A stretch of 64,000 nucleotides of DNA from Roseburia sp. (GTDB taxonomy: Bacteria > Bacillota > Clostridia > Lachnospirales > Lachnospiraceae). Every line of letters begins with the position of its first letter. The stretch's first letter is position 1. This document shows positions 7,095-53,761 of this stretch, one piece after another. Under the pieces are notes generated by a model. That model was given only the letters and a program-made list of their open reading frames with translations, did no database searches and was not told the origin of the DNA. Location of the stretch: assembly GCA_023662875.1 (NCBI GenBank), contig JAMPIG010000003.1, positions 30,460 through 94,459 on the forward strand. Reading direction: 5' to 3'. The position numbers and the translations under genes were made by a program.

Positions 7095-7245
7095 CCTCCG
7101 TCAGCCGATCGAATGCAGAAAAAGCCCGCTTCGCGGCTGCGCTTCCTGTCCGTCAACTTAACAAATGCAGGAAAACCCGCTTCGCGGCTGCGCTTCCTGT
7201 CCATCAGCTTAGCGAATGCAGGAAAAGCCCGCTCCGCAGCTTCGG
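7095..7245 (-). repeat. 51-base unit in three tandem copies, copying the 3' end of the DUF1015 gene
   Basis: Units at 7095-7145, 7146-7196 and 7197 to about 7245. The last is the true 3' end of the DUF1015 gene, including its stop. The next copy retains the reading frame (51 = 17 codons) and ends in the same way, with a further TGA. The outermost copy is more diverged. Shared core text is CCCGCTTCGCGGCTGCG on the plus strand. The rest of the 271-base gap between glgB and DUF1015 shows only the hairpin at 6970 and no clear promoter. Confidence 0.85.
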
Positions 7246-34807: not shown

Positions 34808-35962
34808 TTATTCTTCTCCGTCTGTTCCGTCCGGCTCTTCTTCCGGTACAATATTTCCCTCCGCATCGTAGGTTGTTTTAACAGGCTGTCCATCCGTATA
34901 AATCATTTCCGTACGTCCGCCGTCTGCATTGTAAATAACTTCCCTGACCGGATTCCCGTCGCTGTCAAATGCCGCCTCATACATCAGCCGGTCATCCGCG
35001 TCGTAGTTCTTCTGGCTTATCATGTTTCCGTCGTTGTCATATCCGTATGTGCTCCAGTTTCTCACCGTATCGTCCGCGCTGTAGGAAATCGACTTGATAT
35101 TATTCCCGTCAGCATCGTATGTATACGCAGTCCAACGCGTCACGTTGCCGTCGGCGTCGCGGAACGTCTCCTTCGTCCGATTCCCGGCGCTGTCATACGC
35201 ATACTCTCTTGTGAACGATACGAGGCCGTCCGCTTCGTAAACTTCTATTTTCTCCAGCTGGCCTGCGCTGTTATAAGTCTCGATATCCCAGCCGTCGTCA
35301 TAGTCATGGTCTACCCGCACGGTTTGCGACTTATCTTCCGATGTATCCGGCTTGTCGATCTCTGCCGGCTTTTCCGTCTCCTCCGGCTTTTCCGTCTCTA
35401 TCGGCTTAACCGTCTCCGTCGGCTTATTCGTTACCGCTGCCGCCTTCTCCGTCTGTACGACAACCTCGGCCCTGGCCTCCCGGTTCTCCGCAGCCCCATA
35501 AGTATGATAATGTCCCCAGAGCGCCAGAATGTCCTCGCCAAAGGCCGCCTGCAGATCCTCATATCTTCCCGCGTAGTCCATAGGATCAAAATCCGTTCCG
35601 GAGTCTCTCCCCTCCTTTGCCCCATAGGTCAGGTAATGCTCCAGATAAGCGTCCCAGTCATCCCCGAAGGCTTCCTCCAGGTCTGCATAACTCTCCCGGT
35701 ACTTTACAATATCGATCATGCCGTTCATATTTCGGCCTTCCGCCAGGCCATAAGTCACAAAATGCTTCCAGAGCAGCTCGCTGTCGCAGCCGAACGCCTC
35801 CTTCAAATCCGGGTAAGTATCTGCGTAATACTCCGGATCAAACACATCCTTCAGCGTCGCCGCATTGACCTGCATAACTCCGCCGTACAACAGACAGCCC
35901 GCCAGCCCGGCCGTCAGGACACGTCTTGCGCTTCTCGCAATTTCATTTCCTCTGATACCCAT
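34808..35962 (-). CDS. secreted repeat protein: three FDPxYY modules, TE/KP linker and YD-type repeats
   Basis: Exported or surface protein of unknown role, 384 residues. Signal peptide about 1-35 (arginine-rich start, hydrophobic core, AA cleavage site). Residues about 40-160 hold three copies of a module reading FDPEYYADTYPDLKEAFG then W-x-HF-x-TYG-x-x-EGR; the module is known from clostridial surface proteins. A threonine/proline/glutamate-rich spacer follows (near 175-215; TETVKP and ETEKP units), then about six YD/Rhs-like strands (YDSAGNRTKE, YDADGNNIKS and similar), and an acidic tail. No sortase LPxTG or membrane anchor is seen at the end. The start has AAGGAGGAAG. Expression probably depends on the G-tract promoter. 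Confidence 0.85.
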   Translation of the reverse strand: MGIRGNEIARSARRVLTAGLAGCLLYGGVMQVNAATLKDVFDPEYYADTYPDLKEAFGCDSELLWKHFVTYGLAEGRNMNGMIDIVKYRESYADLEEAFGDDWDAYLEHYLTYGAKEGRDSGTDFDPMDYAGRYEDLQAAFGEDILALWGHYHTYGAAENREARAEVVVQTEKAAAVTNKPTETVKPIETEKPEETEKPAEIDKPDTSEDKSQTVRVDHDYDDGWDIETYNSAGQLEKIEVYEADGLVSFTREYAYDSAGNRTKETFRDADGNVTRWTAYTYDADGNNIKSISYSADDTVRNWSTYGYDNDGNMISQKNYDADDRLMYEAAFDSDGNPVREVIYNADGGRTEMIYTDGQPVKTTYDAEGNIVPEEEPDGTDGEE

Positions 35963-36022
35963 TTTCGCTTCCTCCTTGTCTCTTCCATGCCGAAAAGAGG
36001 CACGGTTGTCTCTTACGTTTTT

Positions 36023-36053
36023 ATTGTACCCCCCCCCAAAAGACTTTTGTCAA
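36023..36053 (-). promoter_or_regulatory. promoter with a nine-G tract in its spacer, likely phase-variable
   Basis: Minus strand -35 TTGACA (36048-36053) and -10 TACAAT (36023-36028) are both near or at consensus, separated by 19 bases. Nine of those are G in a row (36029-36037), directly next to the -10. Gain or loss of a G would change spacing; seven G would give the optimal 17. It lies 61 bases from the start of the secreted repeat protein. Confidence 0.82.
36029..36037. repeat. homopolymer tract, C9 on plus (G9 on minus)
   Basis: Nine identical bases. Tracts like this are prone to slipped-strand mispairing during replication. It lies in the promoter of the secreted repeat protein rather than in a coding region. 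Confidence 0.95.
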
Positions 36054-36193
36054 TACCCTATGTTATTATTTGATACACTTTCCCGATCGGCTCCGCTTCG
36101 CCTTTCCGTCTCCAAAAGTCTGCTTTTTCTATTATTTATGAGATTAGAATTCTCATGAAACGTGAATTCTATTGTCCATGCCAAATTTTACGC

Positions 36194-36222
36194 TTGACAT
36201 ATTGCCGGTTCTAATCTATAAT
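36194..36222 (+). promoter_or_regulatory. consensus promoter for the tetR-ABC operon
   Basis: Perfect TTGACA (36194-36199), 17-base spacer, perfect TATAAT (36217-36222). So strong a promoter calls for repression, consistent with the palindrome just downstream. Upstream, 36054-36193, shows only imperfect GAATTC-based inverted repeats. Confidence 0.9.
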
Positions 36223-53123: not shown

Positions 53124-53564
53124 CTATTCTTCTTCCTGCCAGTGCTCCAGCTCGTCAACCGGATAGGCATTCGTCCAGTGCCAGGGCTGTAATTCCCTCA
53201 ATTCCACAAATCGGATTTTATCCTCCTTCGTCGTGACGGCCACCTGCACCTCCTCGCCCCAATACCGCAATCTCTCCTGGCAAATGCCGCAGGGCGACAA
53301 TACCTTATACGGAGAATTTTCATCCTTGCGGACAAGACACATACAGTGCGTCACTTTTTCATTGTATTTATGGGCTTCCAGCATAGCTCCCAGTTCAATA
53401 CATACGATCGCGGATGCATTCGCGGTTTCAATGGATACGCTTGTATAAAAATTCCCCTTGGACGTGTGAACAACGCCGGCACCGCCCCAGCCGACCGGAT
53501 ACCGCTTCTCAATTAATTCCGCCGCCCTCCGGTACATCTCGTTTTCGATCTCATAATTCCTCAT
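53124..53564 (-). CDS. cdd: cytidine deaminase-family protein (cytidine/blasticidin-type)
   Basis: Zinc deaminase of cytidine or deoxycytidine, salvage partner of pdp. It is 146 residues from the ATG at 53564 (GGAGGTCTTT site). The zinc/Glu site is CIELGAMLEA (Cys and catalytic Glu near 55) and PCGICQERL (two Cys near 92), i.e. three cysteine ligands as in tetrameric CDAs. The C-terminus is unusual in length and holds WHWTNAYPVDELEHW. The first 44 bases of the gene are tandemly duplicated twice upstream. The name cdd is by similarity; some relatives act on blasticidin. Confidence 0.88.
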   Translation of the reverse strand: MRNYEIENEMYRRAAELIEKRYPVGWGGAGVVHTSKGNFYTSVSIETANASAIVCIELGAMLEAHKYNEKVTHCMCLVRKDENSPYKVLSPCGICQERLRYWGEEVQVAVTTKEDKIRFVELRELQPWHWTNAYPVDELEHWQEEE

Positions 53565-53608
53565 AAAGACCTCCAATACGCCTCGTCTTCGATTTTGCAA
53601 TTCCTCAT
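53561..53608 (-). CDS. 15-codon reading frame in the middle duplicate of the cdd start
   Basis: Runs from the ATG at 53608 (preceded by TTGGAGGTTTCT, a good ribosome site) to a TGA at 53561-53563 overlapping the cdd ATG (ATGA). Peptide MRNCKIEDEAYWRSL. With the previous frame it forms a chain ending in the real gene. Confidence 0.5.
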   Translation of the reverse strand: MRNCKIEDEAYWRSL

Positions 53609-53652
53609 AGAAACCTCCAATACGCCTCGTCTTCGATTTCGCTATCCCTCAT
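53605..53652 (-). CDS. 15-codon reading frame in the distal duplicate of the cdd start
   Basis: Runs from the ATG at 53652 to a TGA at 53605-53607 that overlaps the next ATG (ATGA). The peptide is MRDSEIEDEAYWRFL, a diverged copy of the cdd N-terminus. A purine-rich CAGTCTTT but no good ribosome site precedes it, so translation is uncertain. Confidence 0.4.
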   Translation of the reverse strand: MRDSEIEDEAYWRFL

Positions 53653-53761
53653 AAAGACTGCTGCAAGCATAAGTTGCTTTGGGCCAAAGCAGGCTTTCGC
53701 CGTTCTCCCTGTAAGCGAGCGAAGCGTAAGGGAAATAGGAACAAAGGTAACATCATCGCAA

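Follow-up and report, generated by a model that had tools for sequence, protein, structure and literature searches.

The window analysed here, a stretch of 64,000 nucleotides from a draft genome of Roseburia sp. (Lachnospiraceae; contig JAMPIG010000003.1), contains a gene for a predicted secreted protein that is preceded by a promoter with nine consecutive G in its spacer (Table 1). The preliminary description had characterized the gene product as a secreted protein with FDPxYY modules, a TE/KP linker, and YD-type repeats, which is borne out both by features recognizable by eye (an N-terminus resembling a signal peptide and three FDPxYY-like modules) and by profile matches to Pfam RHS_repeat (E = 3e-10) and NCBIfam YD_repeat_2x (E = 3e-6). 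A candidate lipobox (LAGC, residues 20–23) was identified by eye within a hydrophobic stretch and is replaced by LAGA in the homologue from L279; inspection by eye for an LPXTG motif was negative. Searches with the product revealed neither a toxin domain in Pfam (at E 0.001) nor a sequence match in the PDB. An AlphaFold2 model based on an alignment of three rows (mean pLDDT 71.9, pTM 0.44) has helices in residues 34–155 and beta strands in residues 213–365, and the PDB structures that Foldseek ranks highest for it are RHS proteins and an engineered OspA, all with low TM-scores.

The T/E/K/P linker is encoded by 18-base tandem repeats (35346–35431), and the homologue from L279 carries a long PGEE(K/E) repeat at the linker position, suggesting that the length of the linker may vary too. 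Other tandem repeats in the window are located at 53538–53658 (period 44) and 7112–7241 (period 51).

Table 1. Features of the tract promoter and its downstream gene (positions in the window)
Feature	Position	Strand	Basis
-35 hexamer TTGACA (6/6 match)	36048..36053	-	direct reading
Spacer, AAAGTCTTTT + G9 (19 bases)	36047-36029	-	direct reading
G9 homopolymer, 3' portion of the 19-base spacer, adjoining the -10 hexamer	36029..36037	-	direct reading
-10 hexamer TACAAT	36023..36028	-	direct reading
Shine-Dalgarno sequence AAGGAGGA	35970..35977	-	direct reading
ATG start of the 384 aa gene	35962	-	direct reading
Predicted secreted protein, 384 aa: signal-peptide-like N-terminus, three FDPxYY-like helical modules, T/E/K/P linker, C-terminal YD/RHS-type beta repeats	34808..35962	-	eye, profiles, AlphaFold2

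Anatomy of the promoter and rarity of G runs

Read on the minus strand, the promoter has exactly the layout previously proposed (TTGACA, a 19-base spacer with G9, and TACAAT), which places a homopolymer long enough to be slippage-prone between the -35 and -10 elements. Because the G9 tract lies upstream of the -10 hexamer, it should not be transcribed, and transcriptional slippage was rejected on these grounds. An invertible promoter is unlikely, since none of the three inverted repeats of at least 10 bases between positions 35850 and 36330 flanks the promoter; all of them are located upstream. MerR-type promoters, which have spacers of 19–20 bases, contain a dyad-symmetric operator in the spacer. 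This type of promoter was also rejected, as no inverted repeat of at least 10 bases touches the spacer and the spacers of the window, its paralogue C63, and the orthologue in G068 have mainly the G run in common. A search of Rfam yielded a single chance-level match outside the promoter. A possible leader hairpin (CCGUGCC/GGCAUGG) in the 5' untranslated region was dismissed because it folds no better than shuffled sequences (z = -0.30) and its alignment is without compensation on both sides.

At 36194–36222, a perfect, tract-free TTGACA-N17-TATAAT promoter belongs to the divergent TetR/ABC-transporter genes and contrasts with the adjoining 19-base tract promoter. A dispersed palindrome, ACAATAGAATTC-N11-GAATTCTATTGTCATGAATAA, is present as a decayed copy at 36126–36176. 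The palindrome occurs in 14 distinct sequences from the fetched loci, one of them the window, and a copy in the opposite orientation is present also upstream of the tract promoter of C63.

Long G/C runs are rare in this DNA. The window contains a single run of at least seven bases, compared with 26 expected under a first-order Markov (dinucleotide) model, which ignores coding constraint and renders the depletion a guide rather than an exact figure. Among 300 simulated windows (19.2 Mb), there were 0 promoters with a spacer tract of G7 or longer. The entire genome has seven distinct G/C runs of at least nine bases (about 172 if the Markov model of the window is extrapolated genome-wide), two of which precede paralogous genes (the window gene and C63) in exactly this promoter arrangement. 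The G9 promoter geometry is more than chance.

Recurrence of G-tract promoters and the genes behind them

Several other loci of the same genome share elements of this design. The paralogue C63 carries TTGACA-N10-G9-TAAAAT, C65, at another of the seven long runs, a promoter-like TTGACT-A-G10 followed by TAAATCTGATAACAT, and C132 has TTGACT-N9-G8-TATAAT ahead of a lipoprotein-like gene. The paralogues C6 and C111 are tract-free; in the case of C6, DNA similarity to the window starts only in the 5' untranslated region, and a tract-free TTGACT-N17-TAAAAT is recognizable by eye upstream. A search of the window genome for an orthologue of the tract gene G068:C22 yielded one weak partial match only.

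In the genus, the pattern TTGACN{0,14}G7N{0,12}TANNAT has 142 matches in 42 of 101 genomes, whereas the reversed pattern has 3 (overlapping alternatives counted). At least five G abutting TANAAT behind TTGAC are present at 131 sites in 43 of the 101 genomes versus 3 in the reversed control, which is imperfect because promoters are directional; nine of the genus sites have G5 and look like chance. At the family level, a narrower G7 pattern, too narrow for the window's own site, yielded 32 sites and 0 control matches; the sites are from 25 of 397 genomes, counting the window's own. GTDB genomes contain the form with at least nine G, searched with spacers up to 20 bases only, in no fewer than 118 stretches, and the record titles among the matches listed comprise Lachnospiraceae, other Clostridia, Bacilli, streptococci, treponemes, Saccharibacteria, and others. 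Related sites and genomes are not independent in any of these counts. The window site is real and non-random, and it belongs to a promoter design that recurs within the genus and outside it.

A second tract form, TTGACA-N-G7-CG-TAAACT, is present at five fetched loci (L327, L328, L329, L330, and L331) from four genomes of the genus. An rRNA-type promoter was rejected for this form because four of the five loci have a downstream ORF, three of which are of the zinc-ribbon type. Outside the genus, a single G (9 versus 10) separates similar tract promoters of the same assembly, as seen for L257 and L296, for L268, and for L210.

Tract promoters are frequently followed by genes for putatively exported proteins. 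A home-made predictor of signal peptides, combined with a home-made finder of downstream ORFs, assigned a signal peptide or lipobox to 55 of 120 genus tract genes (15 of 135 sites without a downstream ORF left out) and to 47 of 352 other ORFs (p = 1e-12), the latter being open frames with a Shine-Dalgarno-like sequence that may include non-genes. Among the matches listed for GTDB, the same holds for 69 of 95 tract genes (34 of 129 sites without a downstream ORF left out), compared with 2 of 31 genes behind tract-free promoters at the GTDB loci (p = 3e-11). The corresponding comparison with tract-free promoter genes within the genus (55/120 versus 8/25) is not significant (p = 0.27). Neither a membrane nor an export signal is predicted for 43 of the 120 genus tract genes, which include zinc-ribbon proteins and regulators.

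Changes in tract length and the nature of the G tract

The window promoter is probably phase variable. We consider it fairly likely that it represents a simple-sequence contingency promoter of the porA/Tp0126 type, in which slippage of the G9 tract would alter spacing and strength. Slipped-strand mispairing during replication would add or remove bases of the tract, and the resulting change in the distance between the -35 and -10 hexamers would alter the strength of a near-consensus sigma-A promoter. The state read here, with a spacer of 19 bases, would be weak, the loss of two G would lead to the strong state, and tract length should vary within a population. Such a switch also predicts mixed tract lengths at the sites of the genus. 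The recurrence of the geometry at C63, across the genus, and in other phyla favors this reading, as does the excess of putatively exported products behind tract promoters, whereas the lack of significance of that excess relative to tract-free promoters of the genus and the 43 genus tract genes with neither type of signal count against it.

The mutability of the tract is most evident among close relatives. Of 11 close one-to-one pairs of interspecies orthologues, all of which are tract promoters of other genes and not of the window gene, six have tracts that are exactly one base apart, whereas the remainder of the spacer is of equal length within all 11 pairs. Six indels in 74 tract bases versus 23 in 2494 flank bases amount to an 8.8-fold difference per base (Fisher p = 1.3e-4). 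The set includes the pair L126/L166, which is equally close and has equal tracts; a hand-picked set of 10 pairs without it gives 6/10 and a 12-fold difference (p = 3e-5), and a wider set that adds four pairs of lower similarity, none of them with a tract difference, gives 6/15 and a 3.9-fold difference (p = 0.006). All 35 pairs together, some of which are from the same genome or re-use a site, include 12 with unequal tracts and 2 with unequal lead lengths. Each species is represented by one assembly, and each assembly gives one tract length. Because homopolymers slip anyway, these changes in length show mutability, not function.

A serious rival to the switch, although in our view unlikely to be correct, is a fixed promoter element that does not switch and whose length is selected in each species, either as the site of a regulator or for a special spacer geometry. 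It is favored by the clustering of tract length by genome (119 sites from 37 genomes; within-genome SS 28 versus 111 permuted, p = 5e-5), with mostly G7 in G013, G051, G102, and G060 but G8–11 in G000, G068, G054, and G097. Nine of the ten genomes with at least five sites have G7 at over half of them, and TTGACN-N9-G7 forms a sharp mode (57 of the 131 genus sites). Loci that turn ON and OFF independently should show more mixing of lengths within a genome. The nearest promoter orthologue of the window (G068:C19) has an unchanged G9 and a spacer of 19, and the window, C63, and G068:C19 have G9 and a lead of 10 bases in common, although those 10 bases differ. Moreover, orthologous promoters of more distant species carry a G tract, such as G068:C22 (G9) and G051:C19 (G7). 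By contrast, a fixed element is at odds with the one-base changes in 6 of the 11 close pairs and with the existence of tracts from 6 to 11 and spacers from 13 to 21 bases in the genus. Apart from the two hexamers, the surroundings of the promoter lack strongly conserved motifs, and its flanks are A-rich; several homologues are tract-free, and unrelated phyla share the design. Loss of mismatch repair was considered as a cause of species-set lengths, but absence of mutS1 is ruled out, since all 20 genomes tested, with long and short tracts alike, have the gene above its cut-off.

The switch proposed in the preliminary description is upheld only in part: the anatomy and the type of gene are right, the mechanism is plausible, and the tracts of relatives do change length, but the clustering by species and the unchanged G9 of orthologue and paralogue call for caution.

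It is improbable that an ordinary sigma-A promoter simply carries a neutral G run that drifts by slippage without a selected role. Although homopolymers drift, and the presence of mutS1 in 20/20 genomes means that slippage may stay low, G/C runs of at least seven bases are depleted in the window (1 versus 26 expected) yet recurrent in spacers (131 versus 3 in the control). Close relatives of the motif also vary in the -10 hexamer rather than in the tract; by our own count, the mismatch in 28 one-mismatch relatives of TTGACA-N9-G7-TAAAAT is located in the -10 hexamer in 25, in the -35 hexamer in 2, and in the tract in 1. Another 28 sites have two mismatches, with an interrupted tract in 10 and a G tract shifted upstream in 6, and some of these 28 may be chance; such imperfect tracts weigh against the switch. 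That the tract length is an artifact of assembly or sequencing is the most improbable explanation, because many separate assemblies show the same design, even if homopolymers are error-prone and the source is a draft assembly of 151 contigs.

Spacer length and comparison with known switches

It had been pointed out for the window promoter that G7 would give a spacing of 17 bases, which is correct and is also the commonest spacer among the exact-consensus promoters of the same genome (26 of 48, versus 1 of 48 with a spacer of 19). The respective numbers for G068 are 34 and 0 of 54; the lists of exact-consensus promoters are complete for G000 and G068 and comprise 48 of 60 for G060. The 131 tract promoters of the genus, by contrast, have a spacer of 17 in 15 cases, of 16 in 62, and of 19–21 in 19, whereas tract-free promoters with the same hexamer pattern at the same genus loci have 17 in 33 of 57 (p = 1e-10). 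The same habit is found in unrelated bacteria: among the GTDB matches listed, a spacer of 17 is present in 11 of 127 promoters with at least nine G but in 30 of 76 tract-free promoters at the same loci (p = 4e-7).

Spacer length at the tract promoters of the assemblies is thus usually off the 17-base optimum, which raises the question of why tract promoters shun the spacing that is favored by other promoters of the same genomes. Off-optimum spacers fit a promoter that is low by default and is brought to the strong state by slips, but would fit equally well with a G tract that moves the optimum. It is tempting, if speculative, to regard the tract promoters as a lineage-tuned, genome-wide bet-hedging set, in which the tracts of each species lie near a common length that leaves the spacers just off 17 bases (16 or 19–20, depending on the group), many genes for secreted proteins are kept low, and single slips raise different combinations of them.

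Promoters of this kind have been described in pathogens. The porA promoter of Neisseria meningitidis is reportedly the subject of work by van der Ende et al. from 1995. According to passages in PMC7864442, both porA and tp0126 of Treponema pallidum have a poly-G tract between the -35 and -10 elements and are transcribed most at a spacing of 17 bases. The window site shares this location of the tract with porA, whose product is an outer-membrane protein; porA, however, belongs to a Gram-negative pathogen, and its length variation and expression have been reported, whereas the window is known from sequence alone. The same location is shared with tp0126 (an OmpW homologue), which, unlike the window promoter with its purely sequence-based record, was tested with reporters (PMC7864442, in part). 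The tprL gene of T. pallidum also has a promoter poly-G, which comprises 7–11 bases and varies in vivo, but there the tract covers part of the -10 element, so that spacing is unchanged (same source, in part). By its anatomy, the window promoter would work like a porA-type switch and is a candidate member of this group.

Related strategies are known from gut bacteria and Clostridia. The pilus switch of Bifidobacterium breve, as described in parts of PMC9187656, resembles the proposed mechanism in that slippage of a G tract affects a surface structure of a gut commensal, but its tract lies within the gene. The invertible promoters of Clostridioides difficile are likewise phase-variable promoters in Clostridia but switch by site-specific recombination rather than by slippage (PMC11868660, in part). 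We found no report of switching by slippage of a promoter poly-G in Lachnospiraceae in the open-access literature, preprints excluded. G-tract slippage in promoters is best described in pathogens (Neisseria, Treponema), and in the Clostridia it would stand alongside promoter inversions. If confirmed, it would mean that the species-rich Lachnospiraceae of the gut diversify their secreted and surface proteins via slippage of promoter G tracts.
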